64,000 nt of DNA, taken from Fimbriimonadia bacterium. Its GTDB lineage: Bacteria > Armatimonadota > Fimbriimonadia > Fimbriimonadales > Fimbriimonadaceae. Position numbers and translations under genes: made by a program. The DNA lies in the NCBI GenBank assembly GCA_030427425.1, contig JAUICQ010000001.1, forward strand, positions 110,665-174,664. Reading direction: 5' to 3'. The notes beneath the pieces were generated by a model, which was given only the letters and a program-made list of their open reading frames with translations, searched no databases and was not told the origin of the DNA. Below are positions 10,367-47,926 of this stretch, piece after piece (positions within the stretch are counted from its first letter, which is position 1; each line of letters starts with the position of its first letter).

Positions 10367-13300
10367 ATGTCTAAAAATAGGTCTTCAATTTCGAAGTTTA
10401 AAACATTATTAATAAAAGCCTCAGATAAGAGCTCTGTTCTTAAGAAGGGTTTTTATTCGGTATTAGTCTCTACATTCCTAGCAATAACATCTAGCGTACA
10501 AGCAGCTGGTGGCGGGAATGTTAATGTAGAGTTTTCTAGTAATGAGCAACTCTATCTTTATGTGTCGCTAGGATTTGGAATTCTTTCATTATTGTTAGGA
10601 TTTTACATATCATCCTCTGTTATGAAACAGAGCGCGGGTAGTGAAGAGATGCAGTCTGTTGCTGATGCAATTAAGGACGGCGCTTTAGCCTATCTAAGAA
10701 AGCAAGTTTCAGCAATGTCTATCTTGGTTGTCTTTATTGCAGCAGGACTATTTGGTCTGTATCAGGGGACACACGGAGCTGCCACTGCATCGTTGATTGC
10801 AGTTAGCTTTATTGGTGGTGTTATTGCATCATACTTTGCTGGTTACATAGGCATGTTGATGGCTGTTAATGGTAACGTAAGAACTGCAAATGCTGCGTTA
10901 ACAAGTTATAAGTTATCACTTGAGACAGCTTTTAGAAGTGGAGCTGTTGCCGGGCTAGCCACAATCGGTATGGGTATTATTGGTGCTTCCGTAATATTTC
11001 TTTTAGGCGGATCTGCATCGGTTAAAATGCTTGTTGGATTCGGATTTGGTGGATCGCTTGCTGCCTTATTTATGCGTGTTGGTGGTGGTATATACACCAA
11101 GGCTGCTGACGTTGGGGCCGATCTTGTTGGTAAAGTAGAAGCTGGAATCCCAGAAGATGATCCTAGAAATCCTGCTACCATTGCTGATAATGTAGGGGAT
11201 AACGTAGGCGACTGTGCTGGTATGGCTGCAGACGTGTTTGAATCTTACGTTGTTACTTTAGTGGCTGCAATCGTTCTAGGGGCTACTACTTCAGAGATAT
11301 TTGAGCAAGATGTTTGGATGAGATTAGTACTCTTTGCATTTATGGTAAAAGGTATTGGTATTCTTTCATCTATAGTAGGAATTCTTACATTTAAAGGAAG
11401 TGACGATTTAAATAGCGATCCGTTATCAGCTATTAGATTAGGATTTAAAAAAGCAGTTCTACTCTGTATTGCAGGTACAGGTGTTGCAGCTTGGTATATG
11501 TTTGATGGAGAAAAAGGTGGAGTTATATCTAGCAAGTTAGTACCTGTCGAAGCATTTCAGAAGAAAGATGCAATGTTAGTTGCTGAGGTTAAGCTAGAGC
11601 AAGCTAAGCACAAGAATGTTCACCCAGATAAAATTGTGGTGAATGATATTGTAAAGAATCCTAAATTAATTAAGAAACAGCTAACTACTGTAGAAAATAA
11701 AGATTATTTAGCAAGTTTATTGTCTATTAAGAATCCGGAAGAACTAGTTTTTCAAGATATGAAAAACTTTAAGAAGCTAGATTTAAATGAGAACAAGGAA
11801 GTAGCTGATAAATACTCTGTTAGCTCTAGATTTTTAGGGATAGATCCTGCCGATAAAAAGGTTAGTGAATTTATTAGTTTAGGTGAGGCTCTAAAAGCAG
11901 GAAATCTTAATTACTATAAACTTAGTATTAAAAAAGTAAATAAAAGCAAAGATGATCCTACAAAGAGATCCGTAGAGAAACCACGTGAACAGTCGGTTAT
12001 CATGTTTGATAAGTTAATTAATAAGATTATTGATGAGAAAAAGAAAGCTGATGATCTTATTATTGATGTTATTGAACATAAGCCAGTAGAGTTTTATCTT
12101 TCCAAAGATAATGCTATCGTTGCTGCCGTTAGCGGATTGAAAAGACACGATGCAAGGAAGTCTGTAGCCCCATTACAGTTATATGCAGCATCTGCAACTG
12201 ACTTAAATAAAGTATTTGCTGATGCTAATAAAGCTAAAGATTTTACAGCACTTAGATCTTTAGATAAGCACACTGTACAACCACAACTTACTGTTATTAA
12301 GCATAAGAGCGTGGACTGGTGGAGATTCTTCCTCTGTGTAGCATTTGGATTATTTATGGCCTTTGCTATAGAACTGTTAACCGATTACTATGTATCAACC
12401 AACAGGAAGCCCGTGCAAGAAGTAGCGGGTGTCTCTACTGCTGGTGCTGCACCAATGCTGATACAAGGGTTCTCGTACGCACTAGAATCCAGTGTATTCT
12501 CTGTATTTGCCATCGTACTCGCTCTTATAGCACCTATGGTAATATTCCCGCCATCGATGTTTGACGGATACATACTGAGCCTTTATGGCGTAGCATTGGT
12601 AGGTCTAGGATTACTAAGCACTACAGGTTATATCCTAGCTATGGATACTTTTGGCCCTATAGCCGATAACGCACAAGGGATATTTGAAATGTCTGGAGCA
12701 GGAAAAGATAATCCAAAAGCAGCTAGAGCTGTAGGATTATTAGATGCTGCTGGTAATACAACAAAAGCATTGACCAAAGGATTCGCTATTGCCACTGCAG
12801 TTGTAGCCGCTGTTGCTTTATTCCAAGCATATATACAGGATACTCACCTCGAAAATATAGGAATTAGAGCTAACATTCCAGAAATATTTATGGGAATACT
12901 ACTCGGTGGTGCTACTCCATACCTATTCTCTGCATTCTCTATAAGTGCTGTAGGAAGAGCAGCTTTCCATCTTATTGGAGAAGTGAGAAGACAGTTTAAG
13001 GCTGATCCTGGAATAATGGCTGGTACTAGCCGACCTGATTATGGTAGATGTGTAGAAATTGTAACCGCTGCTGCTCAAAAAGAGTTGATTGGTCCAGCGA
13101 TTCTTGCTATATGTATGCCTATAGTAGTAGGATTTGGTTTCTCTATTGGCAAAGATCCAGTAATTATCGGTGGTGAGAGATACAATCTAGTTGGAGCTGA
13201 AGCGCTTGGTGGGTTCTTAATAGGTGCCATAGTAAGCGGTCAGTTATTAGCGGTATTGTTAGCTAATTCTGGCGGTATGTGGGATAATGCTAAGAAATTA

Positions 13301-13594
13301 ATCGAAGACGGTCATCATGGTGGAAAGGGAAGTGATGCACATAAAGCTAGTGTTGTATGTGATACAGTAGGGGATCCGTTCAAGGATACGGCTGGTCCTG
13401 CGCTTAACCCATTAATTAAGGTTATGAACCTAGTTGCAGTACTACTTGCTCCTATTATTGTACAACCATTAAGTACTAGTGTTTTAGTGGGAGTAACTGG
13501 GGTGTCCGGTATATTCTTAATCGGGGCTATGGTCTATTCGAAGAAAGGATCTATGAGTGATCATTTCAAGTCTATGAGCAGTTCTGAAAATTAA
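10367..13594 (+). CDS. hppA: Membrane-bound H+-translocating pyrophosphatase with large insertion
   Basis: Integral membrane pump that couples PPi hydrolysis to proton export. The catalytic loop EDDPRNPATIADNVGDNVGD is at about 263-282 and the second substrate loop (DTVGDPFKDTAGPALNPLIK) near 1003-1022. GNTTKA at 796-801 carries Lys800 where K+-dependent enzymes have Ala, so it should be a K+-independent H+ pump. Two features are odd. Residues 1-47 look like a cleavable signal peptide ending SVQA-AGGG. Residues ~384-647 (~264 residues, Lys-rich, no membrane segment) are inserted between two transmembrane helices, making the protein 1075 residues instead of about 650-750. From the usual topology this loop should face outside the cytoplasm. 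The start ATG follows an AGGTG. Confidence 0.95.
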   Translation: MSKNRSSISKFKTLLIKASDKSSVLKKGFYSVLVSTFLAITSSVQAAGGGNVNVEFSSNEQLYLYVSLGFGILSLLLGFYISSSVMKQSAGSEEMQSVADAIKDGALAYLRKQVSAMSILVVFIAAGLFGLYQGTHGAATASLIAVSFIGGVIASYFAGYIGMLMAVNGNVRTANAALTSYKLSLETAFRSGAVAGLATIGMGIIGASVIFLLGGSASVKMLVGFGFGGSLAALFMRVGGGIYTKAADVGADLVGKVEAGIPEDDPRNPATIADNVGDNVGDCAGMAADVFESYVVTLVAAIVLGATTSEIFEQDVWMRLVLFAFMVKGIGILSSIVGILTFKGSDDLNSDPLSAIRLGFKKAVLLCIAGTGVAAWYMFDGEKGGVISSKLVPVEAFQKKDAMLVAEVKLEQAKHKNVHPDKIVVNDIVKNPKLIKKQLTTVENKDYLASLLSIKNPEELVFQDMKNFKKLDLNENKEVADKYSVSSRFLGIDPADKKVSEFISLGEALKAGNLNYYKLSIKKVNKSKDDPTKRSVEKPREQSVIMFDKLINKIIDEKKKADDLIIDVIEHKPVEFYLSKDNAIVAAVSGLKRHDARKSVAPLQLYAASATDLNKVFADANKAKDFTALRSLDKHTVQPQLTVIKHKSVDWWRFFLCVAFGLFMAFAIELLTDYYVSTNRKPVQEVAGVSTAGAAPMLIQGFSYALESSVFSVFAIVLALIAPMVIFPPSMFDGYILSLYGVALVGLGLLSTTGYILAMDTFGPIADNAQGIFEMSGAGKDNPKAARAVGLLDAAGNTTKALTKGFAIATAVVAAVALFQAYIQDTHLENIGIRANIPEIFMGILLGGATPYLFSAFSISAVGRAAFHLIGEVRRQFKADPGIMAGTSRPDYGRCVEIVTAAAQKELIGPAILAICMPIVVGFGFSIGKDPVIIGGERYNLVGAEALGGFLIGAIVSGQLLAVLLANSGGMWDNAKKLIEDGHHGGKGSDAHKASVVCDTVGDPFKDTAGPALNPLIKVMNLVAVLLAPIIVQPLSTSVLVGVTGVSGIFLIGAMVYSKKGSMSDHFKSMSSSEN

Positions 13595-16322: not shown

Positions 16323-17876
16323 TTAATCAATATTATCTGCAGAATTTGCTTGTGCTTCAATCATGTTGTTTACAGCACTATCAAACTCTGTAACTCTTTG
16401 ATCTATTTTTTTAGTATTGTTTTCTACAGTCATCATATTTTCTTGAAGGTCGGTTGCAGACTTAGATAATTCTTCTGCGGCATCTGATACTTCTGAAATA
16501 TTGTGAGACATATGCTTAATAGTTTTATTAGATTCGGATATCTGTTCACTGATATTATTTAAAATATTTCTATTGTTTCCATTCATATTTTTAAGGCCTA
16601 TTACAGCTTCAGACATAGTATTGTTTTGTTCACTAGTAATTTCAGTTAAATTGGCTATTTTTTCTAGGGCTAGCGCAGCATCGATGGTAACTTTTGAAAC
16701 ACTATCTACATCATTGACTGTAGTTTTAATAGCTCCGGACATATCATTACTTGTTTTTTGAACAGTACCTATTAAGTTAGATATTTCATCAGCAGATTCT
16801 TTAGATTTAATCGCTAGCTTTCTTACTTCAGTAGCAACTAATGCAAATCCTCTCCCGTGCTCTCCAGCATGTGCTGCTTCAATAGCAGCGTTTAAGGCGA
16901 GTAGATTGGTCTGATCTGCTATATCGTTAATAGAATCTACAATTCCACCAATTTCATTAGATCGTTGATTCATATCCTCTACTAATATGCTTGCTTGGTG
17001 AACTGTCTCTTTAACTCTTTTAATCTCAGATACTCGTTCTTTAATTTCGAACCAGATTTTCGATTGAATATCTATCTCTCCAATACTATTCTGAACACTT
17101 TCGATAGCTGCAACCATTCTTTCTAACGAAGTATCTTGTTTGTTGGCTGCCTTAATCATATCTTCTTTTAGTCGTTCTAGTTTATCCATCGAATTCGTAG
17201 ATTGTTTAGACATATTGGATAGTTCAGAAGCACTTGCTGTTAATTCTTCAGACATGGCCAACAGTTCACTAGTAAGATTTGCTGTGTTATTAGCTGCAGA
17301 GTGTGTATCCGCACTTCTGGCAGTTAGTTCTTCTATAAATTCTCTTACTTTATCTCTTAGTGGTGCAACATATGCATATTCTATATATGCTTCCATAATT
17401 AATTCTTGATCTAGGTTTATAGCTTTCATAATGGCAGCGATAGTCTTACCGCTTTTTCTAGCTGAGAACCTGTAATAGGAAGTGATGCTCTCAAATAATA
17501 CATCATAATATGTGCTCATTCCACAGAAGAAAAGCTTAGGATGAAGGCCGATTCTTGCATGAATCCAGCCGATTATCAGTCTACTTTCTAAGAACTTCTC
17601 ATCATATTCACATCTTAGTAATTCCTTAAAGTAATTTGGATTAGTTTTTTTAAGCTTATCTATACTTGAACCAGAATTTTCAATAATTTTCATAGCTGAA
17701 GGAATAGTTGCTAAATGACCGTAGAATGAGTTTACAAGCTTGCTCATTTTTCTATTTACTAGTCCCTCAATATTTCTTATGTACTTCTTGTCTGATTCTT
17801 TTATCCCGTAGATATCAACTCTATGTTTTAATTCGTTAATACTAATACCAAATTCTTTAACTAATGTACCGTTCAT
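16323..17876 (-). CDS. Globin-coupled sensor chemoreceptor (soluble, HemAT-like)
   Basis: Heme-globin sensor fused to a methyl-accepting signalling domain; relatives sense oxygen for aerotaxis. Residues 1-165 are protoglobin-like, with the proximal-histidine motif [12 protein letters not shown] (His106 counted from this start). There is no membrane segment. The MCP coiled coil follows, with the conserved tip [20 protein letters not shown] then [12 protein letters not shown] near 325-365. I chose the second ATG (17876) because GGAG stands six bases before it; the first (17888) has no ribosome site and itself creates that GGAG. Length is 517. It is divergent from the membrane receptor at 18086. 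No cheA, cheW or cheR genes are nearby. Confidence 0.93.
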
Positions 17877-18085
17877 ACTTTTCTCCATTTATTTTTTTGA
17901 CTAAATTACTTTAATATTTAGGTGTAATGGACTACTTGTTGCAATAAACAGATATTAAGAACAGGTTTTTTTAAAAAATAATATACTTTTATGTATATTT
18001 ATTAAATTACTGGCTATTTTGCCTTAATGAAAGTCTTACAACAATCCTAGAATAAAATTGTAACTGTATGAAAAAGGAGATTGTA

Positions 18086-34288: not shown

Positions 34289-35521
34289 TTACTTCTTTTC
34301 TTGCATCCATTTAATAACATCAAAACCATAGGAGGTTTTTAATGTTTCAGCTAAAGATAAAAGGTTATTGCTCAAGCTTCCCGATTGCTGAGAACCGGAA
34401 TCTAATAGAGTTACAGATTCTATATCCATTTCCGGAAGCGATTTCACAAATGTTTCAGTTATAGGGAGTAGCTTCTGTTGCATTATTATTGGAATCCCGT
34501 TTTCACCGTATTTTTTGCTTTCTTTAGCTATTGAAATCATCGCCTCACTTCTAGCTTTTCCTTGTTCTATAATTGGTAGACTATTGGCTTTTGCGTTTAA
34601 TACCGCTGCTTCATAATTTGCTTTGGAAGGCAATATTCTATCTGCATTAAGTTGTCTTTTTACTTGCTCAACCCTAGCTTTTTGAAAATCTATTTCAGCC
34701 TCTACTTTCGCGATCTCTGCTTCAACCCCTGCTTTTGCTTCTGCTATAAGAGCTTCACGTTTAGATATTGCATCGATAATTTTCTGGTTAGCCTGTGCTT
34801 CTGCTATGTTTCTTTCTGCGTCTACTTGTGCCGTAACTTCTTTTTCTAAGTTTTCAGAATTACGTATTTTAGCATCTGCATGAGTAGTAGCTTCACGAAT
34901 TTTAGCGCTCGCCAATGCTTGAGCGTTTTTAATTCTACCAATTGAGTTTAGGTATTGTACATCATCATGAATGTGTTGAATCTTAAGATTATCTACTACA
35001 AATCCCAACTCAAGCATATCTTTTTCTGCTTCAGCTACTAGTTTATTCGCAAAGAGTATTCTATCGCTATTTACTTCTTCGGGGGTAAGGGTCGCCAATA
35101 CTCCACGCAGACTCCCTTCTAAAGTGGCTCTGGCTATATCAACAATTTCTTCTCGGGTCTTATCCAGCAATCGTTCTATAGCATGGTTTAAGACTGGTTC
35201 ATATCCAGCAATTTTTACATTTGCTACTCCTTCAACATGTAGTGGTATACATCCCTTAGAATAAGCATTTTTAGCTTTTAAATCTATAATCATGTTTGTG
35301 ATATCTAGCTTATCAACTCGTTCTATGAGAGGAATGAGAACGGCCATGCCGCCTTTAATTATTCGATAGCCATATATTTTCTCACCAACCTTTCTTCTCG
35401 ATCCAGAAAATACTAGCACCTCATTAGGTGAACATATGAACACTAAATTTCGTAAGGCGAATAAACTTATTAAAATTACAAAAAATAGTATTATGAATAA
35501 AAATGTAAAGACTCCTGACAT
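34289..35521 (-). CDS. Flotillin-like SPFH/band-7 protein (second of pair)
   Basis: 410 residues. An N-terminal membrane helix (about 5-25) is followed by the SPFH domain (about 28-190; FICSPNEVLVFSGSRRK and RATLEGSLRGVLATLTPEEV). A long Ala/Glu/Lys coiled coil (about 200-300; AEAKAGVEAEIAKVEAEIDF) and a C-terminal oligomerisation segment follow. Flotillins assemble large membrane rings that organise lipid microdomains; the catalytic role is nil. It starts 2 bp after the upstream SPFH gene ends, so translation is coupled. Sequence differences between the two copies suggest they form hetero-oligomers. Confidence 0.92.
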   Translation of the reverse strand: MSGVFTFLFIILFFVILISLFALRNLVFICSPNEVLVFSGSRRKVGEKIYGYRIIKGGMAVLIPLIERVDKLDITNMIIDLKAKNAYSKGCIPLHVEGVANVKIAGYEPVLNHAIERLLDKTREEIVDIARATLEGSLRGVLATLTPEEVNSDRILFANKLVAEAEKDMLELGFVVDNLKIQHIHDDVQYLNSIGRIKNAQALASAKIREATTHADAKIRNSENLEKEVTAQVDAERNIAEAQANQKIIDAISKREALIAEAKAGVEAEIAKVEAEIDFQKARVEQVKRQLNADRILPSKANYEAAVLNAKANSLPIIEQGKARSEAMISIAKESKKYGENGIPIIMQQKLLPITETFVKSLPEMDIESVTLLDSGSQQSGSLSNNLLSLAETLKTSYGFDVIKWMQEKK

Positions 35522-35523
35522 TA

Positions 35524-36909
35524 TTAATTTCCTCCCGATTTATTTCTTTTTGATGTACCTGCAAGTGTTTTAGTATTATAATTCAGAATACTAGGAATAT
35601 CCATCCCAGTTGATAGCTTAGTAGCATCAAACATAGAGTAGACCACCCCATGGCAAGCTTTTACATACTCTTTAATGGCCAAGCCGGCATCGCCGTGTAG
35701 GACTCTCATTTTATTAACCTTTACTTTTTGTAGCGATTTTGAGGCTTCTTCTAATAAAACATCAATCTCTGAGAGTATGGCAATCTTTTGAGCATCATCC
35801 CCACAATTGTTCCAGGCTTTACCTAAAACATCGATAGCATGAGAAAGAGCCAGACCTTTTTCTTTTTCAATAGCAGCTTCTCCCATCGCATTATACTGTT
35901 CTACTTGTAATTCAGCTTCTGCTGGTAGATTAATATCGCACTGCAACCTTATCTCCTCGCATACAGATCTCACTTTTTGCAGCTCTTGTTCGGATAACGC
36001 CTTAGCTTTCAGTGGTGCGACCTCCGTACGCTTATATTCCGATTGTATTTTTGCTTCTAGTTGAGCTTTGAAGCTTCGAAGATCGTTCTTCATTTTAGCA
36101 ATATTAGCTTCTACATTTGCTTCTATAGTGCCCGATCTGCTGTTCTGGATAGCTATAGCTTGTTCAGCTTCACGTTTAGCATCACTTTCAGCTAACTCTG
36201 CTGTACGAACTACATTGGCGATAGCTTGCCTTCCTATGGCATCTAAATAGCCCTTCTCATCTCTAACGTGTAGAATCTTCAAGCTATCTAGATGCATGCC
36301 CAATTTATTAAGGTCTTCTTCAGATTCATGTTCTAATATCTCTAAGAATTTAATTCTGTCTTCATTAACTTCTTCTGGTGTAAGCCTTGCAACCACACCT
36401 CGCAGCTGACCCTCTAATGTCTCTTTTGCAACTCTTCGAACATCTTCTAATTTTCTCCCAAGAAATCTTTCTATTGCATTGTTAATAGTAACGGGGTCGC
36501 TTGAAATTTTAACGTTAGCTACAGCATCTACATCTATCACTACACCACCTTTTGAATATACTTCACGAATAGAAATGGGAACAACAATGGTGGATAATCG
36601 AATTTTCTGGACTGTTTCTAGGAAGGGAATAAGAATACCTCTACCGCCGATTAATACTCTGTATCCTTTAACAGATCCGTCTGGCATTTTCCTTTTTAAT
36701 CCACTAAAAATTAAAGCTTGATTTGGTGGGCAGATGCATATAAGCTGTTTAAGCAACCATATGAATCCTATTGTGAAAAGTACGAATGCAACAGCATAGG
36801 TTAAGGTAGTGGATTCTTGCCTTGCTGATAAATCTAATAAATTATTAGCTGTATCACTGTAGCTCAATATTGTATTTTGTGCATGTATATAAATATCTTT
36901 TATCATCAC
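35524..36909 (-). CDS. Flotillin-like SPFH/band-7 protein (first of pair)
   Basis: 461 residues. A membrane helix at about 36-58 (TYAVAFVLFTIGFIWLLKQL) is preceded by a longer N-terminal tail than in its partner. The SPFH domain is at about 60-225 (CPPNQALIFSGLKRK, KETLEGQLRGVVARLTPEEV). A coiled coil follows at about 235-330 and a unique C-terminal region to 461 that lacks the partner's end. It is the middle gene of a minus-strand operon: NfeD-like protein, this, then the second flotillin, with gaps of 15 and 2 bp. This resembles the yuaF-floT and yqiJ-yqiK arrangements. Confidence 0.92.
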   Translation of the reverse strand: MMIKDIYIHAQNTILSYSDTANNLLDLSARQESTTLTYAVAFVLFTIGFIWLLKQLICICPPNQALIFSGLKRKMPDGSVKGYRVLIGGRGILIPFLETVQKIRLSTIVVPISIREVYSKGGVVIDVDAVANVKISSDPVTINNAIERFLGRKLEDVRRVAKETLEGQLRGVVARLTPEEVNEDRIKFLEILEHESEEDLNKLGMHLDSLKILHVRDEKGYLDAIGRQAIANVVRTAELAESDAKREAEQAIAIQNSRSGTIEANVEANIAKMKNDLRSFKAQLEAKIQSEYKRTEVAPLKAKALSEQELQKVRSVCEEIRLQCDINLPAEAELQVEQYNAMGEAAIEKEKGLALSHAIDVLGKAWNNCGDDAQKIAILSEIDVLLEEASKSLQKVKVNKMRVLHGDAGLAIKEYVKACHGVVYSMFDATKLSTGMDIPSILNYNTKTLAGTSKRNKSGGN

Positions 36910-45628: not shown

Positions 45629-47611
45629 TTATTTTACAGATGCAGCAGCGCTAACTTGAGGTTGCTGTCCGGAAAATATCTCTAATAACCAATTCATTAT
45701 GGTAGTGTCATTTTTTAGAGTAATTAACTCAGAGCTTTTTCCATCTTGTGATGGGTTTACAAAGCACATACCATGTGGCCAGTTAGGAGATACAAAAGCA
45801 GTACCTAATTTCACTTCTATTTTACCTAGATCTGTCTTGCTTACGACGGATACATCCTTGCTGTTGAATCCGCCTTTGCCATCTAAGCTAGCAGGAACAG
45901 CACTGTTTATTCCTACACAACCATCGTTTGCATCTTTGCCTAGATAAGGTGAATTGGATGCCTGTTCCCCATCGCCCTGACCTTGGTTAGCAGGATTAAA
46001 TGGATCGAATCCGCAGAAGTAGTATTTTACTGTACTAGGGACTTCCTGTTGATTGAGGTCAGAAATATATTTTGGTACATTTCCACCATCAACAATCCAG
46101 TCATTTGGAGATCTCATTACAAAGAGATCTTCTACAAAGTTTTTCTGCCAGCTTAATTTTGGAGCTTGTGCAGGATCTGCACCTTGTGCTTCAACTTTTT
46201 TCTTGATATTCTCATTAATACCATTAACCATAGCATCTGGTCCTACTTTAGCAAGCATTCCAGCTATATTCTCACCTTGCTCCTTACTCCAACCTGCTAA
46301 CTGTTGACCGAATGGTGTTGTAGCCATATTGATAATACCACCGGTAATGGTGCTATTTTTATCTACATTTGCTCCGTTATTAGGAACAGCAAAACCAACT
46401 AAGTTTGTAAACTTCGAAGATATAGGAGATTTGCTTTGGATAACATCTCTCAACAGAAGTCCTCCAATACCGAATCCCATTCCAACTATCTCACTTATTC
46501 CATCTCCAGATTTTGCTAATGAATTGTTTAATTCGTTTGCTATATCTTTAAGCGGCGCGAATGAGTTATATTGCACTAGTACAATAGAATCGAATTTTAT
46601 ATTTCCAACTTTTTCTAACGTAGTTACCATTTCTGGTGCAAACTGATAAAAAGAGGCACCTGTACCAAAATCACCCATTGCAACTAGTGCTTTACCTTTA
46701 ATGGATGACGTTTCACTCCAGTTACTACCATTCCATGATAAAAGAGTAACATGAGGGTATCTGTATTCACTAGGTTGAGGTTCTTGGCCACCGCCCCCTC
46801 CTCCTTGCTGTTGCTGCGGAGGCATTCCTAATGCAGCAGCCATTTTAGGATCGTATTCGGCTTGTATCATTGTTCCCATCTGAATAAGCTGTTGTCCTAC
46901 CATGGTTAATTCAGGTTCTAGTTCGGGGAATGCAATTGCTACAGCAATAAGAGCTATCTGAGCAAACATTGGCCAGTTAGTTTCCATGTATGGTCCTACA
47001 TCATTTTTAAAGAAATCCCCTGTAGCAATTCCAGCTTTTGCAAATGCATTTCCAGTTGTGATAGCAGCATTTTCAACAGCATTAACACCTGTTAGAACTC
47101 CTCCAACGCCTGTCATGACTCCGCTTTCTACCCCATGGACACCCGTCATAACGCCGCCTCCGATAGTATTTACTCCAGTCATAAACCCACTTCCTACAGT
47201 ATTTACTCCGGTCATCACACCGTCTTTTACCGCATTGAAGGCCGTATTCGTTACAAAGTTAAAACCTCCTTTTGCAAAATTTCCTGTCGCATTTGCTGCA
47301 GCTTTAGCAGCGTTTGCAGTCGCTTCTGCTGCAGTTTTGGCAACGTTTGCAGTCGCTTCTGCTGCAGATTTAAAACCATTAACAAATCCTTCACCTGCAC
47401 TTTTAAAGCCACCACCTACTGTTTCAGCTGCACCTTTAATACCATTTCCTATACTACTGAAAAAGCTACCAAATCCACCCTCTTCATCTAAATGTAGAAC
47501 ATGATCTATGGATGCACTATTGTTTTCTGGAATTATTTCTACACTATTCCAGTTACTGCTTGTGATAATGAATGCAATAGCGCACATTATATTTCTTATA
47601 AACTTATTCAT
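45629..47611 (-). CDS. Secreted lipase-like protein lacking the nucleophile serine, with MTGV repeats
   Basis: 660 residues. A signal peptide is likely at 1-20, and the start ATG follows GGGGGA. Residues 45-130 are Gly/Ala-rich amphipathic repeats (AAEATANVAK type). Residues 131-180 are 11-residue repeats of the form GVMTGVNTVGS. A hydrophobic helix (about 212-232) and a Gln/Gly linker (264-280) follow. Residues 285-640 resemble an alpha/beta-hydrolase of the lipase/LCAT kind: GFGIGGLLLRD at 379-389 aligns with the usual GHSMGGLVAR, but the nucleophile is Gly381. LVGFAVPNNGAN matches the LGTPHHG motif, SPNDWIVDGG an Asp site, and PHGM near 615 a His. It may be a binding protein, not an enzyme. 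Confidence 0.7.
   Translation of the reverse strand: MNKFIRNIMCAIAFIITSSNWNSVEIIPENNSASIDHVLHLDEEGGFGSFFSSIGNGIKGAAETVGGGFKSAGEGFVNGFKSAAEATANVAKTAAEATANAAKAAANATGNFAKGGFNFVTNTAFNAVKDGVMTGVNTVGSGFMTGVNTIGGGVMTGVHGVESGVMTGVGGVLTGVNAVENAAITTGNAFAKAGIATGDFFKNDVGPYMETNWPMFAQIALIAVAIAFPELEPELTMVGQQLIQMGTMIQAEYDPKMAAALGMPPQQQQGGGGGGQEPQPSEYRYPHVTLLSWNGSNWSETSSIKGKALVAMGDFGTGASFYQFAPEMVTTLEKVGNIKFDSIVLVQYNSFAPLKDIANELNNSLAKSGDGISEIVGMGFGIGGLLLRDVIQSKSPISSKFTNLVGFAVPNNGANVDKNSTITGGIINMATTPFGQQLAGWSKEQGENIAGMLAKVGPDAMVNGINENIKKKVEAQGADPAQAPKLSWQKNFVEDLFVMRSPNDWIVDGGNVPKYISDLNQQEVPSTVKYYFCGFDPFNPANQGQGDGEQASNSPYLGKDANDGCVGINSAVPASLDGKGGFNSKDVSVVSKTDLGKIEVKLGTAFVSPNWPHGMCFVNPSQDGKSSELITLKNDTTIMNWLLEIFSGQQPQVSAAASVK
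47072..47221 (-). repeat. 33-bp coding repeats (MTGV type)
   Basis: Four to five units encoding variants of GVMTGVNTVGS at residues 131-180. At DNA level the motif GTCAT(G/A)AC(T/A)CC recurs on the plus strand. The period of 11 residues suggests an amphipathic helix wheel or surface-layer repeat. Confidence 0.75.
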
Positions 47612-47819
47612 TTTCCCCCATTTACTTCTTTTAATAACGTTTTATTATTATTTACAATTTGATTTTTGGATAATATCTATCTAAGTGCATAGGTGTTAAT
47701 ACGAGGTTTGTAATATTAGAAGAGAGTCTGCTGTATTTTTAATACACAGTAATAAATACTTAGGGTATACTTGTTATAAAAGCTCTAAAGACAGTTGGTA
47801 GTATAATTCCAGAGATGGG

Positions 47820-47910
47820 AGCCAGCCGAGGGGTATTTAGGAATAATAATAGTATTATTATAGCAGTTCTTTTACGAGCGGCTCCTGGATACCACCAGGA
47901 GTCGTTTTTT
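47820..47910 (+). promoter_or_regulatory. Leader/attenuator of the rplJ-rplL operon
   Basis: Upstream of rplJ, GC-bearing segments (GGGAGCCAGCCGAGGGG near 47817-47833) precede a terminator-like hairpin CGGCTCCTGG (47879-47888) / CCAGGAGTCG (47895-47904) with six T. The 5' GAGCC segment could pair with GGCTC in the hairpin, an arrangement that would switch between termination and read-through. It is similar in logic to the known L10 leader, where L10(L12)4 binds the mRNA, but I cannot confirm the exact consensus. Confidence 0.55.
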
Positions 47911-47926
47911 ATTTATTGGAGGGAAT

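Follow-up and report, generated by a model that had tools for sequence, protein, structure and literature searches.

The window, i.e., the whole 64,000-nucleotide stretch of DNA that was analysed, belongs to a genome (G000) that totals 1.51 Mb over 19 contigs; related genomes of its family span 1.7–6.5 Mb. At positions 45629–47611 the window carries a 660-codon open reading frame on the minus strand, the plus strand there being interrupted by many stops, and GGGGGAAA, a possible ribosome-binding site, directly precedes its ATG. The gene adjoins rplJ, as does its ortholog (L006) in a congeneric genome of 1.5 Mb (G001). An L10_leader RNA (47767–47919, plus strand; Rfam RF00557, 44.2 bits against a gathering score of 44) lies 5' of rplJ/rplL, and all three are oriented divergently from the gene. 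The features of the gene and its product are given below, with the basis for each in brackets.

45629..47611, minus strand: whole gene, 660 aa, predicted exported pseudo-lipase (ORF and translation)
47522..47611, minus strand: residues 1-30, signal-peptide-like N-terminus, K/R then a hydrophobic stretch (sequence)
47015..47476, minus strand: residues 46-199, about 14 amphipathic 11-residue repeats (periodicity, hydrophobic moment, PDB match)
46826..47014, minus strand: residues 200-262, central hydrophobic helical segment, NDVGPYMETNWPMFAQIALIAVAIAFPEL... (identity to ortholog, model)
46760..46825, minus strand: residues 263-284, Gln/Gly-rich linker (sequence; 15% identity to ortholog)
45671..46759, minus strand: residues 285-647, degenerate lipase-type alpha/beta-hydrolase domain (hhalign, Foldseek, VIA)
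46670..46675, minus strand: Gly313-Asp314 in place of the HG oxyanion motif (alignments)
46460..46477, minus strand: nucleophile elbow GFGIGG, residues 379-384 (codons, alignments, core model, hhalign)
46469..46471, minus strand: Gly381 codon GGT, nucleophile position (codon, hhalign)
45923..45925, minus strand: Asp563, kept catalytic-acid position, NDGCVGINSA against NDGMVPVNSA (alignment, profile)
45773..45775, minus strand: His613, probable kept catalytic-base position, WPHGM (ortholog, motif order)

The N-terminus predicts export via a signal peptide, and the corresponding sequence of the ortholog is a clearer signal peptide (MNILKKINLFAVLALSTTIGMSA, then Q). The ortholog has an intact frame of 637 codons and is 42–43% identical to the window protein. 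It was the only relative found in a contig scan of the genome collection, and no orthologs outside the genus were found in 275 genomes of the phylum; orthologs are known from two genomes, one or both of which are MAGs. Identity between the two is highest in the central segment (residues 200–262), at 65% compared with 40–47% elsewhere, and this segment is helical in the full-length AlphaFold model, at low confidence.

The original prediction of a lipase-like fold in the C-terminal domain was borne out by fold prediction and fold search. Aligned profile to profile (hhalign) with nine Ser-bearing paralogs plus G090, ten Ser relatives in all, the domain gave a probability of 97.7% (E 1.5e-12, 122 columns), and searches with the AlphaFold core model returned CALB, cutinases and esterases both in Foldseek (probability 1.0, E 1e-4) and in VIA (Z 8–9.3 over ~ 130 residues). 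The core model places a strand at residues 371–380, the elbow, and a helix at 382–392 (model residues 90–99 and 101–111, with Gly100 being Gly381; pLDDT 59–80), i.e., the strand-elbow-helix arrangement of the alpha/beta-hydrolase superfamily. Because the models were built from two sequences only, the window protein and L006, the core model is confident only at ~ 282–405, the first third of the domain, with pLDDT mostly below 50 past ~ 405; the full-length model had a mean pLDDT of 34.5 and was used as weak support for helices only. Against the Pfam profile Palm_thioest the protein scored 12.0 bits, below the cut-off of 26.8, whereas the paralogs L004, L005 and L003 scored above it. No match to DUF687 or DUF3530 was listed at E up to 1, a list from which HMMER filters may drop weak matches. 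Weak matches to Chlorosome_CsmC (E 0.005), a phage tape-measure profile (E 0.04), and Rmt methyltransferase and bacteriocin models were judged to be composition-driven and rejected, all being below cut-off wherever one exists.

Within this fold the elbow reads V-G-M-G379-F380-G381-I382-G383-G384-L-L-L-R, and the nucleophile Ser is replaced by Gly381, as had been proposed: the codon is GGT, the residue falls in the Ser column of the hhalign alignment to the Ser relatives (FGIGGLLLR against HSMGGLVAR), and it lies at the elbow between strand and helix in the core model. The elbow of the ortholog reads AAGLGG, and since this Gly, in another species, has a different codon (GGA), Gly381 is neither a sequencing error nor the result of recent decay. 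Both orthologs have GD in place of the HG oxyanion motif. The protein therefore has neither the nucleophilic Ser in G-x-S-x-G nor the HG-type oxyanion motif of an active serine lipase or esterase. A decaying gene, in which the Ser-to-Gly change is one step in the loss of function and has no selected role, would suit the reduced 1.5 Mb genome and the low overall identity of the orthologs. We regard this as highly improbable, given that the frames are intact in both species (660 and 637 codons), the rplJ neighbour is conserved, and the 65% identity of the central segment and the NDG..SA and YNSFAPL motifs have been conserved at 43% identity overall.

The claim that candidate Asp and His sites remain held in full for the Asp, which is invariant at position 563 in a 13-row alignment (C-terminal profile alignment E 7e-4), and with less assurance for the His. 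His613 is kept in the ortholog (WPHAL) and corresponds to LNH/LPH in the paralogs by order and context, the alignment there being weaker, so it is a probable match. The kept Asp and His could support chemistry without serine, which counts against a non-catalytic reading: Asp563-His613 might serve as a general base, as in some Ser-free alpha/beta-fold lyases or oxygenases, making the protein catalytic while no longer a hydrolase. All three Gly proteins (the third is a paralog described below) retain Asp and probably His, and alpha/beta hydrolases working with a D/E-H dyad have been described (PMC11878206). We nevertheless consider such an enzyme unlikely, as the HG oxyanion motif has also been lost, the elbow region (48% identity to the ortholog) shows no higher conservation than the remainder of the domain (41–47%), the best-conserved part being the central helical region, and cofactor or pathway genes are absent next to the gene.

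The hydrolase family has seven members in the window genome (the window gene, two on contig C7, and one each on C4, C1, C6 and C11) and five in G001. At the level of the class, lipase-like secreted paralogs are expanded in this reduced-genome genus (7 in G000, 5 in G001) compared with at most two matches in each other genome searched. The comparison set comprised six same-genome paralogs, four from the sister species G001 and three family-level relatives, and every member compared keeps Ser and HG except L034. Four other ortholog pairs or groups likewise have Ser, and it is also present in the single members from three further genomes of the family. L034 (L034:1445-2590, G000 contig C4) is a second Ser-to-Gly paralog, with the elbow AMGAGGLVAR, HE in place of HG, and Asp and probably His kept; it is without a long repeat array, and its Gly elbow is shared by no match in G001. 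Across the alignment the HG motif is lost in all three Gly proteins (the window protein, L006 and L034), in which the His preceding the nucleophile has also gone, and is kept in all 12 Ser proteins.

The question of whether relatives keep the Gly thus has a divided answer, with the ortholog and L034 doing so and 12 other paralogs or relatives having Ser. Relatives with an intact GxSxG, which had been named as a possible refutation, do exist, but as they are same-genome paralogs or single copies in other genera they reveal the origin of the protein and do not refute a pseudo-enzyme. That reading is upheld by the matched hydrolase fold, the Gly kept in the ortholog, and the loss of HG where 12 of 12 Ser relatives keep both HG and Ser. 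In the tree, L034 is apart from the window/L006 pair in all bootstrap trees and a single Gly origin is found in 0% of them, which suggests two independent Ser losses, one in the window pair and one in L034; a single loss is not rejected by the AU test (p 0.10). The same-genome Ser paralogs (L005/L013, L016, L017, L030 and L031, with Palm_thioest, PGAP1-like and class 2 lipase profiles) share with the window protein the alpha/beta-hydrolase domain and the motifs YxS, GG(L/V)xxR and DGxVxxxSA, but they retain the Ser of a GxSxG-type elbow as well as the HG oxyanion motif, and are without the long 11-mer array. Among the genomes searched, there was no other case of a pseudo-lipase fused to 11-mers beside expanded intact paralogs.

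Ahead of the domain, Ala-rich and MTGV repeats had been listed as two elements. The repeats are present, but they are not separate, since the 11-residue periodicity is continuous over residues 46–199 and the two types therefore form one array, in which Ala/Lys/Glu units (GFKSAAEATAN/AAKAAANATGN) are followed by TGV/N/G/M units (GVMTGVNTVGS). Lag-11 identity is 0.43 against a shuffled maximum of 0.19 (1000 shuffles), and the hydrophobic moment exceeds that of all 1000 shuffles. The hydrophobic period is 3.69 (power 16.6 against a shuffled 99% value of 8.2) and that of the ortholog array 3.66 (power 23.1), where 11/3 is 3.67; in both, the power is higher than the 99% shuffle level by a factor of two to three. 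These are tandem 11-residue units with an 11/3 hydrophobic period, as in perilipin/synuclein-type modules. In a sequence search of all PDB entries with the array segment, alpha-synuclein was the only family matched (best E 0.006), and comparison against both the G000 and G001 genomes gave no other match in either.

The composition of the array, rich in Thr/Gly/Val with few charges and a low hydrophobic moment, resembles that reported for perilipin 4, and 11-mer repeats take a 3-11 helix form on lipid (PMC5889406). With perilipin-4 and alpha-synuclein the array shares the 11-residue units, the 3.67-residue period, the T/G/V-rich low-charge composition and the low hydrophobic moment, but it is far shorter than that of Plin4, is fused to a hydrolase-fold domain and follows a predicted export signal; the likeness is likely convergent rather than inherited. 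From its low-charge, 11/3 amphipathic sequence, lipid binding by the array is plausible. Counting against this, 11-residue arrays are also known in LEA-type and coiled proteins without lipid binding. The protein might then be structural or stress-related, its array LEA-like or a coiled envelope filament and its hydrolase domain an adhesion or assembly module in the manner of neuroligins; the repeats are rich in Gly/Ala/Thr/Asn, an 11-mer array (DAAKDGAEKMG repeats) also occurs in a small lipoprotein (L008) of a family relative, and the best-conserved part is the central segment. LEA arrays, however, are highly charged, unlike the array region here with only 19 charged residues in 167, and the hydrophobic face and T/G/V composition better suit helices at lipid interfaces, which leaves this explanation rather unlikely. 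Nothing was found that particularly favours the surface structure that the original prediction had offered as one role.

On balance we think it probable, though not strongly so, that the gene product is an exported pseudo-lipase without hydrolytic activity, retained at a lipid surface, and that it arose within a family of secreted serine lipases/esterases that has expanded in this small-genome genus. The signal peptide would export the protein, after which the ~ 14 repeats, whose periodicity is observed, may fold as an extended 3-11 amphipathic helix of low charge along the lipid surface. The C-terminal domain keeps the lipase fold, the Asp and a probable His. With the nucleophile and HG motif observed to be lost, no acyl-enzyme would form and the domain would presumably be inactive, so that it would act at the interface by binding a lipid, ester or partner; the most plausible roles are those of a scaffold, a lipid carrier or a co-factor of the active Ser paralogs. 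Given that the second species also lacks the catalytic Ser and that the repeats are lipid-coat-like, the protein probably binds lipid surfaces instead of cutting lipid. A co-factor or scaffold role for the active Ser paralogs is speculative and is drawn from their co-occurrence in one genome.

For this last step there is a parallel on the lipid droplets of animals, where CGI-58 acts together with ATGL and perilipins, by analogy only and not by descent. CGI-58 is an alpha/beta hydrolase without Ser that serves as a co-factor of lipases, and DUF687 and DUF3530 are bacterial alpha/beta hydrolases without catalytic residues and with proposed non-enzymatic roles (PMC11878206). As in CGI-58/ABHD5-like co-factors, the catalytic Ser is absent here, with Gly381 in its place, and the likeness extends to a lipase-type fold and a proposed action at a lipid surface; CGI-58/ABHD5 is, however, eukaryotic, of another subfamily and without a fused 11-mer array, the comparison being one of design taken from the literature and not of homology. 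DUF687 (Chlamydia) and DUF3530 (Pseudomonas) are likewise bacterial folds of this type with proposed near-membrane roles, but have other accessory domains. Neuroligins are also secreted or surface hydrolase-fold proteins lacking the catalytic Ser, but are animal proteins of other subfamilies with adhesion roles and no 11-mer array. Drosophila yolk proteins are secreted hydrolase-fold proteins without the catalytic Ser, yet they are animal proteins with a storage role and no 11-mer array. A literature search on this lineage and on yolk-protein analogues found nothing usable.

Alpha/beta hydrolases without Ser and 11-mer lipid helices are each already known; what is new is their fused architecture and its conservation across the genus. 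An improbable extension would make the protein a bacterial, exported, one-polypeptide counterpart of animal perilipin/CGI-58, in which a pseudo-lipase joined to a lipid-coating 11-mer helix would position or stimulate active secreted paralogs at a lipid surface outside the cell or in the periplasm, the Ser having been lost twice in the same small genome. The fusion offers a compact test system for a pseudo-lipase working at lipid interfaces, and bears on whether bacteria evolved a perilipin-like coating of lipid in a setting other than lipid droplets.

Elsewhere in the window, positions 10367–13594 encode an H+-pyrophosphatase of 1075 aa, to which the profile matched in two separate stretches; it is unusually long and may therefore hold a large insertion. 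Chemotaxis genes are present in this 1.5 Mb genome, among them one that joins a Protoglobin domain to a methyl-accepting chemotaxis domain (16323–17888; oxygen-sensor type) and, after it, one for a second chemotaxis receptor. Two neighbouring Band-7/SPFH domain genes lie at 34289–36909 on the minus strand.
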